From Anaerolineae bacterium (lineage in GTDB: Bacteria > Chloroflexota > Anaerolineae > Aggregatilineales > Phototrophicaceae), in contig JACDGI010000010.1 of assembly GCA_013821665.1 (NCBI GenBank), forward strand, positions 1 to 33,128: a stretch of DNA of 33,128 bases, read 5' to 3'. Every line of letters begins with the position of its first letter. Positions within the stretch are counted from its first letter, which is position 1. The position numbers and the translations under genes were made by a program. Below, one piece after another: positions 9,312-33,030 of the stretch. The notes below the pieces were generated by a model. That model was not told the origin of the DNA and made no database searches. It saw only the letters and a program-made list of their open reading frames with translations.

Positions 9312-9358
9312 TGACAAGTATATCACAAAAATCTACTCTTAAATCAACATCGAATACT

Positions 9359-9400
9359 AACCGCCAAGAACGCCAAGATGAAGGCAGAGAAAGCAGAGAT
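9359..9400 (+). repeat. CGCAGAG-type intergenic repeat (copy 1)
   Basis: aaccgccaagaacgccaagatgaaggcagagaaagcagaga directly upstream of the HMGL-like CDS. Confidence 0.75.
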
Positions 9401-12096: not shown

Positions 12097-13164
12097 TTAC
12101 AAATCCACCCACCGTCGTTCCTGTGACGACAACCGGATCGCATCCATCGCCTGTTGAGTCTTAAACCCATCTGCGAAGGTCGCGCCCCACGTCACACCGC
12201 GTCCCTCACGGATTGCGTTAGTTGTCTCTTGGATCAGCGCCACAAACGAAATGTTCCAAATCCCTTTACCGATCCCCGGCAAGTTCGCGTTGGGATCGCT
12301 CTCGCTCACATCTACAAAGTCTTCACCGGCCTTTGCCAGCCATAACTTCTCTTCGCCCTCGGTGAGTTTGATCGTTCCCTCACTACCGAAAATTTGTACA
12401 TGGTTACCCATGTTGTTCCGCGCCACCGTACTAATAAACACCTGCGCTATCGCACCGCTTTTCATCTCGGCTGTGAAAGTAGTCAAATCGTCAGCGGTCG
12501 CCACGAACGCGGCACCATTATTCTTATCCGTCCGGTCAGGAACCATCGTCACCACCTGCCCACTCACTGCGTTGATGTCACCGAGCCAGAAACGCAGCAA
12601 ATCCAGTTGATGTGAGCCGTTTGCTCCCAAACGACCGCCGCCCATCTCGACCTTTGCCAGCCAGCTATCAGCCGCTTGTGACGCAGGATTGCCCCAACTT
12701 GAACCGATCACCGAAACGTTGGCGTGTCGAATCTGACCGATCACACCATCTTTAATCAACTGGTGGATTTTGCGTCGGTTCGGGTTAAAGCGCAGCTCAT
12801 GTCCGATCATATGAACCCGATTGAGCGCCGTCGCCTTCTCTAACATCAACAGCGACTCGTTACTGTTCATCGCCATCGGCTTCTCGCAAATCACATGTGC
12901 GCCAGCCTCTAATGCTGCCAGCACCATCGGCGCGTGGTAAATCGTCGGTGTCGCAATGCCTACTAGATCGACTTGATGCTTCTCTAGCATCACCTTCCAG
13001 TTGTCGTAGGCGTTCGGGATATTGAATTTGTCCGCAACCGCCTTTGCACTCTCCAACCGCGCGCTGGAAATCGCCACCAACTCCACGTCTGGAATAGTCG
13101 CCAACGCCGGTAAATAAGCCTCTTTGGCGAAACTCGCCCCAATCACTGCTGCTCTAATCGTCAT
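12097..13164 (-). CDS. Gfo/Idh/MocA family oxidoreductase
   Basis: 'AAVIGASFAKEAYLPALATIPDVELVAISS', 'VICEKPMAMN', 'GGGRLGANGSHQLDLLRFWLGD'. Confidence 0.93.
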   Translation of the reverse strand: MTIRAAVIGASFAKEAYLPALATIPDVELVAISSARLESAKAVADKFNIPNAYDNWKVMLEKHQVDLVGIATPTIYHAPMVLAALEAGAHVICEKPMAMNSNESLLMLEKATALNRVHMIGHELRFNPNRRKIHQLIKDGVIGQIRHANVSVIGSSWGNPASQAADSWLAKVEMGGGRLGANGSHQLDLLRFWLGDINAVSGQVVTMVPDRTDKNNGAAFVATADDLTTFTAEMKSGAIAQVFISTVARNNMGNHVQIFGSEGTIKLTEGEEKLWLAKAGEDFVDVSESDPNANLPGIGKGIWNISFVALIQETTNAIREGRGVTWGATFADGFKTQQAMDAIRLSSQERRWVDL

Positions 13165-13211
13165 TTTCTCTTTGCCTTTATCTTGGCGCTCTCTGCGTCT
13201 TGGCGGTTAAA
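13165..13211 (-). repeat. CGCAGAG-type intergenic repeat (copy 2, minus strand)
   Basis: Minus-strand reading gtttaaccgccaagacgcagagagcgccaagataaaggcaaagagaaa ends next to the ATG of the Gfo/Idh/MocA gene. Confidence 0.75.
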
Positions 13212-13224
13212 CTGTATTTCTTCC

Positions 13225-14604
13225 TCACCACAGATCGCGTGCTTTCAACACCTCGCCAACTGCTTCCAAGTTTCGCAGTTCCGCCTCGGAATAATTCCGT
13301 GAGAGCAGTACACCGCTTGCCCCACCATCAAAAGCGGCATTCACACCATCCTTGATTTCGTCGGGTGTGATTTCCTTGCTCTTGCCACCATCACCCACGC
13401 CTACGCCGATCCCCGAATAGACTTTGCGTCCAGTATCGGCCACCAGATTTGCTGTCCATTGCTTGACGTATTCCGGCTTGAAACCCGCCATCGGTGCTTC
13501 ACTGCGTGGCGCGATGAACTCATTCAAATTAAGGATGGTCGCCAGCGCATTATAGGCACCATCCGGAGTCGCATCGGCCAATACGGCTTTCTGCCAGCTC
13601 TCGGCGAAGTTCGCAAACCGTGCCCCTGCGGGTGTGTGATACAAAACCGGCTTGAACCAATCCGCGTACGGCGCATACTCCGTCTGGTCGTACTGCGCCT
13701 TCGCGTATGGATTATAGGTATTAATCACCTGCCACACGCCGAAACCAACTTCTTTTTTCGGGTCAAAAAACTTGATCAGTCCCGAAACTTCGTGGTACAT
13801 ATCCTGATGTGCATCCAACCACATTTTCTCCCACATCAGCACTTCGGGATTCAACAGCAGATGCCGCAGCAGGGTCACAAACACCCCATCACGCGGACGT
13901 TCGCCTTTCCGCACGCCTTGAAGGAAGCGGTCTATTTTCTGGTAGCCTTCGATTGAGCGCTGCACATCCAAGCCGCGCGCCCGTGCCTCAGCTTTGAAAT
14001 ACTCATCAAAGCCGGTCGAACTATCCCCTCTAAAAATATCCATCAACGGACTGTGCCGCTCAATTCCCCATAGCATTCCAGTCAAATCATGGTTGCTAAA
14101 CCAGTCGCTAATTACCGACCGCCACCATGCGCGGTATTGCGGGTTCATCAATGAAGGTCGTGTCGCCAGCTTGCCCCAGTGATCACGATCTAAAAAGTGC
14201 GCGAACCCCGGTTGCCAGATCGAGCGGATGCTGGAAGCCGATGTTTCACAGTAATAGGGATAGACTTGCATCCCGCGTTTCTTCGCCGCTGGAATCACAT
14301 CGCGGAAGGTATCAAATCCTTTATAAAGCGGATCAGGCGCGGCAAACTTCTTATGAAAAGTGCCTTCGTAGAACTCAGGATCAGGTTCAAAGAAAGCCCC
14401 GCCTTGTAAATTATCCTTTTCGGCTACACCGTGGTCAGGGAAGCCATAAGGCGCTCGTCCCGCATTACCATAGCTCCACGACAATGCCGAAATCAGCAGG
14501 GCATTCACACCCGCTTTCTCTTGTAGAATGTCTAATACTTGCTCGACACCCTCATCAATAAAACTGATGGCACCAATTTGGATGCCTACCCATGTCTTGG
14601 TCAT
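13225..14604 (-). CDS. Hypothetical protein, TIM-barrel / glycoside-hydrolase-like
   Basis: 459 aa; barrel-like features 'GVNALLISALSW', 'AAKKRGMQVYPYYCET', 'LTGMLWGIERHSPL', 'GGASGVLLSRNYSEAELRNLEAVGEVL'. Confidence 0.65.
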   Translation of the reverse strand: MTKTWVGIQIGAISFIDEGVEQVLDILQEKAGVNALLISALSWSYGNAGRAPYGFPDHGVAEKDNLQGGAFFEPDPEFYEGTFHKKFAAPDPLYKGFDTFRDVIPAAKKRGMQVYPYYCETSASSIRSIWQPGFAHFLDRDHWGKLATRPSLMNPQYRAWWRSVISDWFSNHDLTGMLWGIERHSPLMDIFRGDSSTGFDEYFKAEARARGLDVQRSIEGYQKIDRFLQGVRKGERPRDGVFVTLLRHLLLNPEVLMWEKMWLDAHQDMYHEVSGLIKFFDPKKEVGFGVWQVINTYNPYAKAQYDQTEYAPYADWFKPVLYHTPAGARFANFAESWQKAVLADATPDGAYNALATILNLNEFIAPRSEAPMAGFKPEYVKQWTANLVADTGRKVYSGIGVGVGDGGKSKEITPDEIKDGVNAAFDGGASGVLLSRNYSEAELRNLEAVGEVLKARDLW

Positions 14605-23484: not shown

Positions 23485-24552
23485 ATGCCGATTACCTTGG
23501 TTCGCGTTCCGGTTGATGAACTTGAAAAATTTAGCGTTAATGTGTTCCAAGCGTTGGGGGTCTCGGAGGATGAGGCGCGGCGCTGTACACGCGGTTTAAT
23601 CGAGAGCGAACTACACTGCTTGCCGGGGCAAGGACAGGGTGTACGACGATTACCTGTTTACCGCGAGCGTATTACGAATGGGTGGATTATACCCGGTGCG
23701 CCATATGAGATTGTGAAGGAAAGTCCGGCGTTGGCGCTTGTTGATGGTCACAACGGACTGGGTTCGGTGGTGGCGCAGAAGTCAATGGAACTGGCAGTAC
23801 AGAAAGCCAAAATTAGCGGGATAGGGACGGTGATCGTCCGAAACAGCACGCACTTTGGTTCAGCCGCAGTGCCGGGGCGACTGGCGCTTGAACAAGATTG
23901 CATCGGAATTGTGATGACGAACGCAGGGCCGGAAATGGCTCCGTGGGGAGCAGCGAGCGGTGTTGTTGGCACCAATCCGTGGGGGATTCTTGCGCCAACA
24001 GGTGGCGATTTCCCAGTGGTGCTGGACATCGCACTGACGACTGCTGGAAAAGGGATGATGCGCTGGTACGAACGCGAGGGCAAAAAGATGCCGCTCGATT
24101 GGGCGCTGACACCTGACGGTTACGAGACCGATGATCCCAGTGCAGCGATGCAAGGTTTCTTGTTGGGCATTGGGCAGCACAAAGGTTACGGATTGTCGAT
24201 GATGACCGACGTAATTACCGGTGTTCTGGGTGGTGGTGGTTATGGTTTAGCACCCTACTCCAATCCCGCCAAGCAAGATGTTTCGCACCTATTCATAGCG
24301 CTGGATATTGAGTGGTTTATGCCCATGAGCGAGTTCAAGGCGCGGATTGACGACTTTATCAAACAGATTAAATCGGCCAAGAAACGACCGGGATTCGATG
24401 AAATTCTCGTACCGGGTGAGTTGGATTACCGGCGCGAACTGGAGTATCGCAAAGATGGAGCCAAGTTGGATGCGGTGGTTTTTGATGAACTGGCTGTGCT
24501 GGCGAAAGATTTAAACATCGACTTCCCGTTTGAGCGGGAGGTAGTGGCCTGA
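23485..24552 (+). CDS. Ldh family (type-2 malate/lactate/ureidoglycolate dehydrogenase) oxidoreductase
   Basis: 'LALVDGHNGLGSVVAQKSMELAVQKAKISGIGTVIVRNSTHFGSA', 'GTNPWGILAPTGGDFPVVLDIALT', 'GQHKGYGLSMMTDVITGVL'. Confidence 0.92.
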   Translation: MPITLVRVPVDELEKFSVNVFQALGVSEDEARRCTRGLIESELHCLPGQGQGVRRLPVYRERITNGWIIPGAPYEIVKESPALALVDGHNGLGSVVAQKSMELAVQKAKISGIGTVIVRNSTHFGSAAVPGRLALEQDCIGIVMTNAGPEMAPWGAASGVVGTNPWGILAPTGGDFPVVLDIALTTAGKGMMRWYEREGKKMPLDWALTPDGYETDDPSAAMQGFLLGIGQHKGYGLSMMTDVITGVLGGGGYGLAPYSNPAKQDVSHLFIALDIEWFMPMSEFKARIDDFIKQIKSAKKRPGFDEILVPGELDYRRELEYRKDGAKLDAVVFDELAVLAKDLNIDFPFEREVVA

Positions 24553-25274
24553 TGTCCATTTCCCAAACTTTGACACGGCCTTTAGCGGCGCGAATTGCTG
24601 CGCTGCCGGAAGTGGTCGAACACACGCATAATCCGCCTATTCCTGAAGGCGTGATTGAGGCGGCTATCCAAGCACTGAAAGACGGCAAGACACATTATAC
24701 CGACCGTCCCGGCATTCTTGGCCTGCGCAAGTGGGTGACGGACATGCTTCAGAAGCAATATGCCGTGACGCTGAAACCGGATGCCGTCACCATTACTTGC
24801 GGGGCGACGGAAGCACGGTTCGTCGTTATCAAACGGCTGGTGAAGGCTGAAGGTACGATTTTATGCGTCGGTGACAGCCAAGCAATTGAAGGCGCAGCAC
24901 AATTGGTGGGCGCGAAAATCGTCTCTGAGATGACTGATGTTTCGGCTATCAAGCTGGTTTATGCTACGCCTGAAGATCCTGTTGAAACGCTGCGACCGAT
25001 TTTGGAGCAAGCCAAAGTACATGGCTGGTGGGTGATGTGGGATGTTAATCAGCAGCCCTCTCTCTCAAACAGTACATTCCATCCAGCACAGGATGAGGCA
25101 CTGGCGGCGAAGGTGATTAGCATCGGCAGCTTCTCGGACGTGATGCCGGGGTGGCGCGTGGGTTGGATGGCGGGTTCGGAGATGGCCGATAAGCTGCGTG
25201 CGTATAAGCAGAGCATGACGATTTGCAGCACCAGCATCTCGCAGTGGGCGGGGATGGGGTTGGTGGAAGAATGA
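24552..25274 (+). CDS. Truncated aminotransferase-like protein lacking the PLP-binding lysine
   Basis: 'VIEAAIQALKDGKTHYTDRPGILGLRKWV', 'PGWRVGWMAGSE' match fold-type I aminotransferases, but 'SIGSFSDVMPGWRVGW' replaces the usual 'xxSFSKxxxMxGWRxGy' and the protein stops at ISQWAGMGLVEE. Confidence 0.85.
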   Translation: MSISQTLTRPLAARIAALPEVVEHTHNPPIPEGVIEAAIQALKDGKTHYTDRPGILGLRKWVTDMLQKQYAVTLKPDAVTITCGATEARFVVIKRLVKAEGTILCVGDSQAIEGAAQLVGAKIVSEMTDVSAIKLVYATPEDPVETLRPILEQAKVHGWWVMWDVNQQPSLSNSTFHPAQDEALAAKVISIGSFSDVMPGWRVGWMAGSEMADKLRAYKQSMTICSTSISQWAGMGLVEE

Positions 25275-25280
25275 GAAGAT

Positions 25281-25358
25281 TTAATCGCAGAGACGCAGAG
25301 AAGAACAGCACAGGCGAATTGAACCGCCAAGTCGCCAAGAGCGCCAAGATTAAGGCAG
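25281..25358 (+). repeat. CGCAGAG-type intergenic repeat (copy 3, double)
   Basis: ttaatcgcagagacgcagagaagaac...ttgaaccgccaagtcgccaagagcgccaagattaaggcagg upstream of the aminotransferase. Confidence 0.8.
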
Positions 25359-25371
25359 GAGGTTGGGGAAA

Positions 25372-26625: not shown

Positions 26626-26681
26626 GCGATCATGCAAGTGAGGGTGGCAGAAATGACACAAATTGCACAATTTGCACATTT

Positions 26682-26802
26682 ATCCGCCGAAATGGCAGGC
26701 GGATGTGAGAGAGCAATCCGCTGAATTGACATTTTTGAACGGCGGCTGGCTCGCCTAAATCCGCCAGTGCAGCGAATGGCTCCCGTGTGTCCGCCGCTGC
26801 AC
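26682..26802. other. GC-rich intergenic segment with several stem-loops
   Basis: ATCCGCC-N9-GGCGGAT (26682-26704), GGCGG-N15-CCGCC (26741-26765), GTGCAGCG-N20-CGCTGCAC (26767-26802). Confidence 0.4.
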
Positions 26803-26901
26803 ATTTGGGGTGACGGTTCGGAGGATGGTAGGGAGTGATCTGCCGAGATGAGAGTCACAAGTTGCAAGAAGCAAGTTACAAGACAAGAAAAGCAAATGCA
26901 A

Positions 26902-26996
26902 TTTAACCACAGAGACACAAAGAACACCCAGATCAATGCGGAGAGTGTTAACCGCAGAGTCACAGAGAACGCGGAGATTAAGACAGAGAAAAGTAG
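26902..26996 (+). repeat. CGCAGAG-type intergenic repeat (copy 4, double)
   Basis: tttaaccacagagacacaaagaacacccagatcaatgcggagagtgttaaccgcagagtcacagagaacgcggagattaagacagagaaa upstream of the M20 peptidase. Confidence 0.8.
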
Positions 26997-27090: not shown

Positions 27091-28380
27091 ATGATTGATG
27101 CGGTGGTGTTGTTGCAGGAATTGGTGAAAATTCCATCACCGAATTTGCCGGGGGATACACGAGCGATTGCGGCTTATATTGCCGAGGTGATGCGCGAGGC
27201 GGGGTGCATGGTGAAGATGCTTGCACCGGAGCAAAAACCAGAGGCGCAAAGTGTGGTGGCGACATTTGGTCAAGGTGCGCCGGTGATTATGCTGCACGCA
27301 CATATTGATACGGTGCCGATTGCGGTGAATGAGGCACAGCGCTGGAGTGTCGATCCGTATGCAGCGGTGATTCAAGAAGGGAAACTTTACGGCAAAGGCA
27401 GTGTGGATGATAAAGCGCCGTTGGCCGCGATGATGGCGGTGATTTTGGAGAAAGCGCATCCTCTCCCCCTAACCCCCTCTCCGCTGCGCAGCGAGAGGGA
27501 ACCAGAAAATGCAAAACCTCTTTCTCAACACGGAAACGAGGGGGAACAAATAGAGGGGACGTTAGTGCTGGTGGCGGCGGCGGAAGAGGAAACAGGTGGA
27601 GTGTTAGGTACCAAATGGCTGGCAGAAAATGGGCATCTGCCAATGTGTGATTTTATTGTGGTGGGCGAGCAAACGCATAACCATGTAGCGACAGCGCATA
27701 AGGGTGTGATGCGTGCGACGGTTCGCGCTACTGGACGGTCGGTTCATGCGACCAACCCTGACCGGGGTGTGAATGCGATCACAGCGATGGCGAAGGCAGT
27801 TCTGGCGCTGGATGCTTACCACAAGGAACTGGCAACGCGACCGCATCCGATTGTGGGCGTTCCGACTTGCAATGTGGGCGTGATTCAAGGTGGGAGTACA
27901 GCGAACGCGGTGCCGGATAGCTGCGTGGTTTATCTCGACCGTCGAATGGTTCCCGGTGAAAATCCAGCGGTGGTGCAGGATGAAATGCGAGCGGTAATCG
28001 ATGGAGTCGATGCAGGTGAGGCAACGCTCAGCATTGGCGAGTTCCAAACCTCAAACTGGTTTGAATCGACGGCAGTATCAGCGTTGGCGCAGACATTTTT
28101 GGGATGTGTGGAGGGGGAGTTCAGAAAAACCCTCGCCCCCCAGCCCCCTCTCCCTCATGGCGAGGGGGAGTCAGAAAATCCTTATTATCCGGGGCCGATT
28201 GGGTATTTGCCGGGAAGTGATGCCAAACATCTGACAGGCGTGACGCGCGGTGAGATGATCATCTTCGGGCCGGGGAGCTATGAGGTGGCTCACGCGTTTG
28301 ACGAATATGTGGATGTGAAAGAGTTTGCAAGTACAGTGAATATCCTACGGGCATTTGTGGAACATACAATACGGGATTAA
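27091..28380 (+). CDS. M20 family metallopeptidase (ArgE/DapE-like)
   Basis: 'VIMLHAHIDTVPIAVN', 'LYGKGSVDDKAPLAAMMAVIL', 'LVAAAEEETGGVLGTKWL', 'TCNVGVIQGGSTANAVPDSCVVYLDRR', 'YLPGSDAKHL'. Contains two palindromic insertions. Confidence 0.93.
   Translation: MIDAVVLLQELVKIPSPNLPGDTRAIAAYIAEVMREAGCMVKMLAPEQKPEAQSVVATFGQGAPVIMLHAHIDTVPIAVNEAQRWSVDPYAAVIQEGKLYGKGSVDDKAPLAAMMAVILEKAHPLPLTPSPLRSEREPENAKPLSQHGNEGEQIEGTLVLVAAAEEETGGVLGTKWLAENGHLPMCDFIVVGEQTHNHVATAHKGVMRATVRATGRSVHATNPDRGVNAITAMAKAVLALDAYHKELATRPHPIVGVPTCNVGVIQGGSTANAVPDSCVVYLDRRMVPGENPAVVQDEMRAVIDGVDAGEATLSIGEFQTSNWFESTAVSALAQTFLGCVEGEFRKTLAPQPPLPHGEGESENPYYPGPIGYLPGSDAKHLTGVTRGEMIIFGPGSYEVAHAFDEYVDVKEFASTVNILRAFVEHTIRD
27454..27557 (+). 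repeat. GC-rich palindromic element inserted in frame in the M20 peptidase gene
   Basis: Core hairpin CCCTCT-c-CGCTGC/GCAGCG-AGAGGG (27475-27499); encodes HPLPLTPSPLRSEREPENAKPLSQHGNEGEQIE. Confidence 0.75.
28111..28179 (+). repeat. Second palindromic element inserted in frame in the M20 peptidase gene
   Basis: Hairpin CCCTCGCC (28130-28137) / GGCGAGGG (28159-28166), flanked by near-identical GAGGGGGAG(T)TCAGAAAA. Confidence 0.75.
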
Positions 28381-28455
28381 TCGCCAAGACGCAGAGAGAT
28401 ACACGAGTTTAACCGCAGAGGCGCAGAGAACGCCGAGAGTAAACAGAGCAGAGAA
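28381..28455 (+). repeat. CGCAGAG-type intergenic repeat (copy 5, double)
   Basis: tcgccaagacgcagagagatacacgagtttaaccgcagaggcgcagagaacgccgagagtaaacagagcagagaaa upstream of the amidohydrolase. Confidence 0.8.
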
Positions 28456-29882: not shown

Positions 29883-29894
29883 GGCAAATACGGA

Positions 29895-29966
29895 TTAACC
29901 ACAGAGACACAGAGTAAAGCAGAGAAGAATTAACCTCAGAGATGCAGAGAGTTAAGAGAAAAGCAA
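29895..29966 (+). repeat. CGCAGAG-type intergenic repeat (copy 6, double)
   Basis: attaaccacagagacacagagtaaagcagagaagaattaacctcagagatgcagagagttaagagaaaag upstream of the M14 peptidase. Confidence 0.75.
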
Positions 29967-29970
29967 AGCG

Positions 29971-31719
29971 ATGAGCTACAACATTGAATTCGGGGAATAT
30001 TTTCTGTTTGATGAGCTGACGAGTCATTTGAAGGCGCTGGCGAATAGTTATCCGGCACTGGCAACGTTGGAGTCGTTGGGAAAAAGTTGGCGCGAGCGTG
30101 ACATCTGGTGCCTGACGATCACCAACAGCGCGACCGGTGAACATACGACTAAACCGGCCTTTTATATCGATGCACATATCCACGCGGAAGAAGTGACTAC
30201 ATCGCATACGGCGCTGTATACGATCTGGTATCTGCTGACGAATTATGGAAGCGATGCGCAAGTCACTTGGCTGCTGGATAACACCACGTTTTATATCATC
30301 CCACGACTGAATCCGGACGGCGCAGAAATCAGTTTGACGACGGCCCATCATTGGTGTGGGAACGGGCGCTATCTACCGGGCGAGGAACAGACGCACGGTT
30401 TGTGCCAGCAGGACATCAACGGTGATGGATTGATTGTGCAAATGCGCATCAAAGATGACGCGGGCGAGTGGAAAATTTCCAAGGATGACCCGCGCTTGAT
30501 GATCCAACGGCAAGCGGGCGAAATCGGTGATGGGCCTTATTACCGCTTGTATCGCGAGGGGTTGATCAAGGGCGATTGGGACGGCGTGACGATTGATATT
30601 GAACGTCCGCGCGACGGCAACCTGAACCGCAATTTTCCCGCCGGATGGTGGTCGGAGCAGCGTCAATATGGCGCGGGTGATTTACCACTTTCAGAGCCAG
30701 AAGCGCTGGCTTGCGCACAATTTATTTTAAGTCACCCGAATATCGCGGGGATGCAGTGCTATCACACGCATGGCGGTTTACATCTACGACCATCGTTGAT
30801 CGCACCGGATGCGACGTTACCAAGAAGTGATCTGGCACTCATCAAACGGATCGGAGCGATGGGTACGGCTATCACCGGTTATCCAACCATTTCGGTGTAT
30901 GAGGAATTTACCAGTGATCCCGACAATCCACGGACGGGGTCGTTGATGCAGTGGTCATATGACGAGATGGGCATCATCACCTTCTCGACGGAGTTGTGGA
31001 ACCCTGAGTTGGCGGCGGGTTTGCAAGATCCGGCGAAGTATCAAATCCGAGCGCGTTCGACCGAGGATGAAGTTAAGCTGCTCAAATATAACGATGAGCA
31101 TCTGGGCGGCAAAGGCTTTGTAAATTGGGAGCCATTTGAGCATCCGCAGTTGGGTTCAATTGAGATTGGCGGATGGACGCATATGTATACCTTCCGCAAT
31201 CCGCCGCCAGCATCCATGGCGACAACTGAGAAGGCACGAAATTTCCTTCGGGATACGATCCACAATAACTGCTTATTCACGCTCAAACATGCGGCTTGTA
31301 CACCTTTGGTACAAATCGAGTCAGTGAAGGCCGAATCACTGGGTGCGAATTTATATAAGGTAACGACGGTGGTGGCGAATGTGGGTTTCCTGCCGACGAA
31401 TATGACGGCACGGGCATTGAAGCATGGGACGGCGGGAAGTGTGAAAGCAGAATTACAGTTATCCCCTCCTCCCAGCCCCCTCTCTGCGAAGCGGGGAGGG
31501 GGAGAAGTCCAATTGATTATGAACGCACAAAGTCAAGATCTAGGGCATTTAGCGGGGCGTGATGAACGGGTGGCGACGTGGTCACCGTGGATGACAGATT
31601 GGCATCATCCAAAAGGCAAAGCCGAGTGGTTGGTGCGCGGTGATGCGGGCAGTACGATCACGATTACGGCAGGCGCTCAACGGGCGGGATGGAAACAAGC
31701 ATCGGTGACGTTGGAATAG
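29971..31719 (+). CDS. M14 family zinc carboxypeptidase
   Basis: 'YIDAHIHAEEVTT' (HxxE), 'IIPRLNPDGAE', 'GMQCYHTHGG' (His ligand), 'TFSTELWNPE' (catalytic Glu). Confidence 0.92.
   Translation: MSYNIEFGEYFLFDELTSHLKALANSYPALATLESLGKSWRERDIWCLTITNSATGEHTTKPAFYIDAHIHAEEVTTSHTALYTIWYLLTNYGSDAQVTWLLDNTTFYIIPRLNPDGAEISLTTAHHWCGNGRYLPGEEQTHGLCQQDINGDGLIVQMRIKDDAGEWKISKDDPRLMIQRQAGEIGDGPYYRLYREGLIKGDWDGVTIDIERPRDGNLNRNFPAGWWSEQRQYGAGDLPLSEPEALACAQFILSHPNIAGMQCYHTHGGLHLRPSLIAPDATLPRSDLALIKRIGAMGTAITGYPTISVYEEFTSDPDNPRTGSLMQWSYDEMGIITFSTELWNPELAAGLQDPAKYQIRARSTEDEVKLLKYNDEHLGGKGFVNWEPFEHPQLGSIEIGGWTHMYTFRNPPPASMATTEKARNFLRDTIHNNCLFTLKHAACTPLVQIESVKAESLGANLYKVTTVVANVGFLPTNMTARALKHGTAGSVKAELQLSPPPSPLSAKRGGGEVQLIMNAQSQDLGHLAGRDERVATWSPWMTDWHHPKGKAEWLVRGDAGSTITITAGAQRAGWKQASVTLE
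31463..31504 (+). repeat. GC-rich palindromic element inserted in frame in the M14 peptidase gene
   Basis: CCCCTCCTCCCAGCCCCCTCTCTGCGAAGCGGGGAGGGGGAG, encoding LSPPPSPLSAKRGGGE. Confidence 0.7.
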
Positions 31720-31724
31720 GGAGT

Positions 31725-31763
31725 TTGAACCGCCGAGTCGCAGAGAACGCCAAATTCAAGGCA
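31725..31763 (+). repeat. CGCAGAG-type intergenic repeat (copy 7)
   Basis: ttgaaccgccgagtcgcagagaacgccaaattcaaggc after the M14 stop. Confidence 0.75.
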
Positions 31764-31783
31764 TAGCAGCAGGATTTTAAGTA

Positions 31784-31837: not shown

Positions 31838-32980
31838 ATGCAATTACTCAATGAAGCGTTTTACAGGCGGAAGATCGGGTAGATTCAGGCGCGGATGGAT
31901 GCCGAGCAGTTAGATGGAATGCTGCTGCTGGATGTGCCGAACGTGATTTATGCTTGCGGGTTTTTCCATACGCCATCAGAGCGACCACTGGGGTTATACA
32001 TCCCAAAGAGTGGTGAAGTGGTGTTGTTCGTGCCACTGCTGGAGCAGGAAAACGCGGGCGCAACATGGATTAAAGATATCCGCACTTATTTCGAGTATCC
32101 GGGTGAGGTGCATCCAATTAAATGGATGGTTGAAGAAATTGGTGTTCGAAAGCTAGGAGTGGACACCATCAATGCCCAAGTCCTATACAATATCGGCGGC
32201 GGTGTTCTTCCTTCATCATTGGTCGAGCAGATGCGATGGATCAAAGAACCGGAAGAAATCGCTTTTGTCGAAAAGGCGGCGACTTATGCCGATTATTGCC
32301 TCGAATACATTCTCGAAAACGCGGGCGCGATTATCCGCGATGGCGGAACCGAACTCGATATTTTGAAAGCGTGTATTGGTGCAACATCTGCCAAGATGAA
32401 GGCCGAAGTCGGCGAAATTTTCAAGCTCGGCAGCAGTTCAGTCGTGGGAACTGTCCACAGCGGGCCACGGGCTGCGCTACCACATGGATCACCGATTGAA
32501 CGTAAGCCACAAATTGGTGAACCGATGATCGCAGGGATTGGGGCATCGGTCGGCGGATACCATGCCGAGAGTGGCGCGACATTTGTAATCGGGGAACCGA
32601 AAAACGATGTCATGCGCTGTTTGGAAGCGGCGATGGAGTGTGATCTGGCAGGAATTAAGGCGCTGCGAGTTGGGAATACCTGTACGCAGGTGAATGATGC
32701 GGCGCTGAATGTGCTACGCGAGTATGGATTGGGCGACGCGATCCGTCACCGGATTGGTCACGGGATGGGATTACAAGGACACGAAGGGCCGTGGCTGGCA
32801 CCGGGGGACAATACACCGTTGGTGGCTAACATGGTGTTTTCCAACGAGCCGGGGATTTACCGACCGGGGATTGATGGCTATCGACTCATCGATAGCATGA
32901 TTGTGACCGAGGGCGAGGCTCAAATACCAAGCCGATTCCTCGCAAATCATCCGCCGGAAAAGCGAATTATTGCAGTGTAA
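31838..32980 (+). CDS. M24 family (Xaa-Pro aminopeptidase-like) peptidase; in-frame TAG at 31880-31882 near the N-terminus
   Basis: ORF 31895-32980 has 'RHRIGHGMGLQGHEGPWLAPGDNTPLVANMVFSNEPGIY'. The same frame upstream reads MQLLNEAFYRRKIG*IQARM, the expected N-terminal helix of M24/creatinase proteins. Confidence 0.85.
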
Positions 32981-32992
32981 ATAGCAATACAA

Positions 32993-33030
32993 TTTAACCA
33001 CAGAAACGCAGAGAAAATCAGAGAGAAAAC
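32993..33030 (+). repeat. CGCAGAG-type intergenic repeat (copy 8)
   Basis: tttaaccacagaaacgcagagaaaatcagagagaaaac upstream of the last CDS. Confidence 0.75.

Follow-up and report, generated by a model that had tools for sequence, protein, structure and literature searches.

Between the genes of a 33,128-nt stretch of an Anaerolineae genome (contig JACDGI010000010.1, positions 1 to 33,128; hereafter the window) a repeat of roughly 45 nt recurs, which we call the octad element. An initial annotation had located it at eight sites ahead of start codons, all of which are indeed present, and had offered two readings: an element of the 5' untranslated region (5'-UTR) acting in translation initiation, or a selfish repeat of intergenic gaps. 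The question that this locus raises is whether the element belongs to the gene that begins behind it or to the gene that ends before it, and how it came to lie there. The reading that we favor, with some reservation, is that the octad element is a miniature dispersed repeat inserted between genes, mostly just past a stop codon and in the orientation of the gene that ends there.

The element runs from an A-rich leader through TTAACC into about three 8-nt CRCMRAGN units, 45-56 nt in total, with the layout (AATRCRAT)-TTAACC-RCMRAG-N-CRCMRAG-NN-CRCMRAG-ATYAANGCRGAGAR and a base composition of 41% A, 25% G, 20% C and 14% T. Autocorrelation placed the repeat period at 8 nt (0.376, peak at lag 8), sharpening the 7-9 nt rhythm described in the initial annotation. 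Two main subtypes exist, CGCAGAG/CACAGAG and CGCCAAG, and octads within one element share a subtype far more often than expected: identical cores were found in 76 of 147 cases in the window's own genome (G000), where 33 were expected, and in 133 of 203 in the same-genus genome G015, where 36 were expected. This sharing points to unit duplication or homogenisation. The element folds no better than shuffled sequences in the single-arm form seen here (z-scores -1.1 to 0.7) and has no conserved structure, and an RNA structure is rejected for this form; the window held no Rfam match at the gathering score.

G000, a fragmented bin, totals 8.1 Mb over 1025 contigs (88% complete, 6.5% contaminated). 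The 20-nt core TTAACCRCMRAGNCRCMRAG, with up to 2 mismatches, occurs there 295 times (150 + 145), compared to 4 matches (1 + 3) for a reversed-pattern control. Scanning the window for two-octad clusters returned 9, where second-order Markov shuffles gave 1.3 on average and at most 6.

We determined the position of copies relative to genes in about 0.69 Mb of G000 (contigs picked because copies lie on them), in parts of G015 and at 30 loci of G009, a third genome of the genus. Genes and their starts were called with a small home-made hexamer-based caller that rewards Shine-Dalgarno (SD) motifs, and the three genomes are related, so pooled counts are not fully independent. The 5' end of the element keeps a tight distance to the stop codon of the co-oriented upstream gene, peaking at 5-15 nt, while co-oriented downstream starts lie at widely varying distances (median about 200 nt). 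Among pooled copies within 30 nt of a stop, 68 were sense and 17 antisense (p = 2e-8), and in pooled sense tandem gaps 32 copies sat close to the stop but distant from the start, versus 1 with the reverse arrangement. Of 105 elements, 39 had their 5' end no more than 25 nt from a sense stop, compared to 15.3 expected and a maximum of 26 over 5000 random placements in the same gaps; control repeat families of G000 showed no stop anchoring. Together, the tight 5' distance, the sense excess, the random-placement test and the unanchored controls identify the upstream stop codon, not the start, as the fixed point. Placement before start codons does not hold genome-wide, and anchoring to the start is rejected. 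Orientation at start codons (23 sense, 14 antisense) was not significantly biased. In one convergent gap of G009 (L398), two copies each lie 6-7 nt past the stop of their own gene.

Stop anchoring describes a tendency rather than a rule, as a large share of sense copies lies far from any stop and 38 pooled tandem-antisense clusters rule out a sense-only arrangement. Of the 121 clusters in the G000 contigs, 48 lie in tandem gaps in sense and 24 in antisense; divergent gaps account for 18, convergent gaps for 15, called genes for 9 and contig edges for 7. Across the three genomes, convergent gaps hold 49 of 234 clusters. Co-orientation with the following gene, as initially proposed, is true of every copy in the window but not of the genome, and the all-sense pattern is a local feature of this operon-rich window. 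The initial annotation had held that random orientation, or frequent sites 3' of convergent genes, would speak against it; orientation is not random, and such sites are frequent.

Its observation of weak SD motifs downstream was borne out: 3 of 18 genes with a sense copy at most 80 nt upstream carried an SD-like motif, compared to 223 of 483 other genes (p = 0.015). This deficit fits displacement of an old SD by an insert and is by itself no proof of a function in initiation, and a repeat that fills a tight operon junction inevitably supplies the sequence ahead of the next start codon.

Comparison with relatives shows that the copies are insertions. Up to nine genomes of the genus preserve the synteny of the genes flanking the copies in the window, and in repeat-free relatives the junctions at 25274, 28380, 29882, 31719 and 13146 are mostly ATGA/GTGA overlaps or gaps of 2-19 nt, with longer gaps of other sequence in a few (G010 at 13146; G012, G007 and G010 at 31719). 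The same five junctions span 78-175 nt in the window; those at 25274, 28380, 29882 and 13146 are essentially all repeat, and that at 31719 is one repeat plus other sequence. At three of them one or two elements occur in the relative G003, and G015 has arrays of at least three (gaps of 240 and 340 nt); related repeats at 28380 occupy 63 nt in G003 and 340 nt in G015. The short or overlapping junctions of repeat-free relatives indicate that the window copies are derived insertions with fast turnover among G000, G003 and G015. Copy number ranges from 0 to 694 over 17 genomes of the genus, and most same-genus relatives and most genes lack the element. The suggestion of a selfish repeat in intergenic gaps therefore fared well, given derived insertions into junctions that in relatives are mostly -4 to 19 nt, this range of copy number and this turnover. 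A small repeat has in this way rebuilt operon junctions, turning 4-nt overlaps into spacers of some 100 nt, and of 340 nt in one relative, that are mostly composed of units from one family, with the downstream gene apparently kept.

Neighboring copies form same-strand arrays in this genus, with direct pairs outnumbering inverted pairs 44 to 4, 159 to 1 and 21 to 2 in three of its genomes. One locus of G015 (L177:8095-8505; G015:C1:20094-20504) holds five octad elements head-to-tail, recurring every 98 nt with other sequence in between.

In other taxa the same word forms the arms of hairpins. It is one arm of an inverted repeat of about 60-86 nt in G252 (same class) and in G038 and G051 (same order), and neighboring copies in G252 were 0 direct to 21 inverted; G350 (same phylum) carries a tandem GCACAGAG octamer. 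Inverted-repeat forms in other families and phyla measure 50-110 nt, several being near-perfect hairpins. A scan of named genomes found, among the matches listed (at least 120 stretches), Cyanobacteria (mostly Nostocales), Chloroflexota, Acidobacteriota, Planctomycetota, Verrucomicrobiota, Pelosinus, beta-proteobacteria, Bacteroidota, Cloacimonadota, Myxococcota and one archaeal bin. Some of these carriers are metagenome bins that may be misbinned, but the Pelosinus fermentans JBW45 sequence is a complete chromosome and cultured strains make up many of the Nostocales. Of 301 evenly sampled genomes from the window's phylum, 42 had at least one exact 18-nt match and few had many. No positional bias was seen in a Nostocales sample, phage records gave no match, and plasmids gave 3 short matches (two cyanobacteria, one Sphingopyxis). 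We found no description of the octad element or of its cross-phylum occurrence in the open literature, where the literal repeat words, searched on both strands in 5.39 million open papers, returned one chance match in an unrelated fish environmental DNA paper; subscription papers lay outside this search, so priority is uncertain.

A dispersed repeat of this kind would reach a new site as a single element inserted by a mobilising factor. Arrays would then grow, shrink and swap subtypes by recombination or slippage between shared words, with orientation kept. Sense copies may persist behind stops because their RNA, A/G-rich and with no stable fold, passes for a ribosome-binding region and is tolerated or sometimes used. 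Should a mobilising factor come to light, it would account for a widespread component of environmental genomes that, so far as the open literature searched here shows, is undescribed.

Several results weigh against this reading. No transposase or other mobilising factor could be linked to the element: Y1 genes occur in all 26 genomes examined, and among 23 inspected Y1 loci two (L347, L348) had an exact copy in the 1.5-kb flank, on one side only. The 74 inverted-repeat copies showed no excess of 2-9 nt flanking direct repeats, that is, no target-site duplication. The orientation bias also appears in convergent gaps (16 copies have their 5' end close to a stop, 7 their 3' end), where protection of a downstream start cannot be its reason. 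Finally, the two copies with orthologues in G003 match at 82/85 positions, compared to about 79% identity in the surrounding DNA. Neutral decay would explain this less well than selection for a function or gene conversion, and a sample of two is too small to tell selection from conversion.

These last two observations lend some weight to the alternative that survives best, although we still regard it as unlikely: an RNA element kept by selection behind stop codons, acting at the 3' end of the upstream coding region on termination, ribosome recycling, Rho access or mRNA decay. It would account for 5' anchoring to sense stops, convergent gaps included, and for the identity of the shared copies, but most genes and same-genus relatives do without the element, many sense copies lie far from a stop, tandem-antisense clusters are common enough to count 38, and the single-arm form has no conserved structure. 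A broader conjecture, less probable again, is that octamer elements across phyla are inserted specifically in sense behind stops, through a process able to detect where genes end, and later become adaptable operon spacers and ribosome-binding regions. A further rival, that insertion itself is polar because the mobilising process recognises the ends of translated genes or is RNA-templated, so that copies land in sense behind stops with no selection, we consider doubtful. It agrees with the tight 5' anchoring, which other G000 repeats lack, with the opposed pair in the convergent gap of L398, and with ancestral junctions that have no common target sequence except the stop; against it, we identified no such machinery, and the inverted-repeat form of G252 fills post-stop gaps in either orientation, as available space alone predicts. 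Sense placement behind stops may come from tolerance, polar insertion or function, which the present data do not separate, and stop-codon anchoring offers a concrete handle on the three. A 5'-UTR or initiation element, serving the downstream gene as an A/G-rich, non-SD ribosome-binding region, is the least likely general explanation, since the SD deficit and the several junctions that are all repeat upstream of a start are set against broad start distances, the share of convergent clusters, the insignificant bias at starts, relatives that initiate the same genes with no repeat, and the SD loss expected if an insert parted a gene from its old SD, with SD counts that come from the home-made caller.

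We compared the octad element, read as a miniature dispersed repeat, with known systems. It resembles REP/REPIN sequences in being small, intergenic, present in hundreds of copies and often a few nt past stops, with inverted pairs in some taxa; it differs in lacking a GTAG/CGTC tag, in starting with TTAACC/ACCRC, and in being non-palindromic with strict polarity in this genus. A link to RAYT/Y1 genes is unsupported, as none of the sampled IS200/RAYT-type genes had the word at its ends. The TAACTGA heptamers of Beggiatoaceae, Cyanobacteria and Bacteroidetes (MacGregor 2015, PMC4679880) are likewise direct repeats of a short unit, intergenic, strongly gene-oriented, patchy over phyla and with few SD motifs nearby. 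In Beggiatoaceae these are anchored to start codons, the largest class ending 1 nt upstream (PMC4679880), in contrast to the octad element with its 8-nt unit, different sequence and anchoring to the upstream stop. Among the small dispersed repeats (SDRs) of Nostoc (Elhai et al. 2008, cited in PMC4390886), SDR5 inserts inside HIP1 sites (PMC4390886), a different placement. The forms in G252, G038, G051, Pelosinus and Burkholderiaceae, inverted repeats with hairpin potential, recall miniature inverted-repeat transposable elements, but no target-site duplication was seen and no partner transposon was identified; a few inverted pairs of the word, which may or may not bound such a transposon, lie 150-3500 nt apart. 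The copies in G000, G015 and G009 are single arms with no terminal inverted repeats.

Copies of the octad element in the window, with their strand and setting
Feature	Position	Strand	Remark
Octad element, single	9358..9400	+	before HMGL-like gene, divergent gap
Octad element, single	13165..13210	-	5' end 14 nt past stop of gene 13225-14604(-); G003 orthologous copy 42/43 identical
Octad element, first of two	25281..25304	+	6 nt past stop of 24552-25274; 4-nt ATGA overlap in relatives
Octad element, second of two, CGCCAAG subtype	25320..25360	+	
Octad element, first of two	26903..26944	+	
Octad element, second of two	26948..26991	+	
Octad element, first of two	28377..28408	+	overlaps TAA stop of gene 27091-28380; -4 to 16 nt in relatives
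Octad element, second of two	28409..28455	+	
Octad element with A-rich leader	29883..29925	+	directly past stop; G003 orthologous copy 40/42 identical
Second octad element	29926..29970	+	absent from G003; array in G015
Octad element, single	31726..31769	+	6 nt past stop of 29971-31719
Octad element with leader	32982..33030	+	directly past stop of 31895-32980

The orthologous place of the last copy in G015 is a co-oriented array of about seven elements.

Other repeats share the window. An intergenic dispersed repeat (GGCGGATG..GGGAG) at 26660-26840 occurs at 48 places in the examined contigs, frequently between convergent genes, and is not stop-anchored. A C-rich/G-rich hairpin (CCCTCNCCCC...GGGAGAGGGG), with many copies in the genus, lies inside M20 and M14 peptidase genes at 27459-27550, 28127-28180 and 31464-31510; the G003 orthologue ceases to align at the 28127 copy, which looks like an in-frame palindromic insertion. 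At 31838-31894, the M24 peptidase gene apparently starts at 31838, as in relatives, and its codon 15 reads TAG where relatives have CAG, either a nonsense change or a sequencing error.
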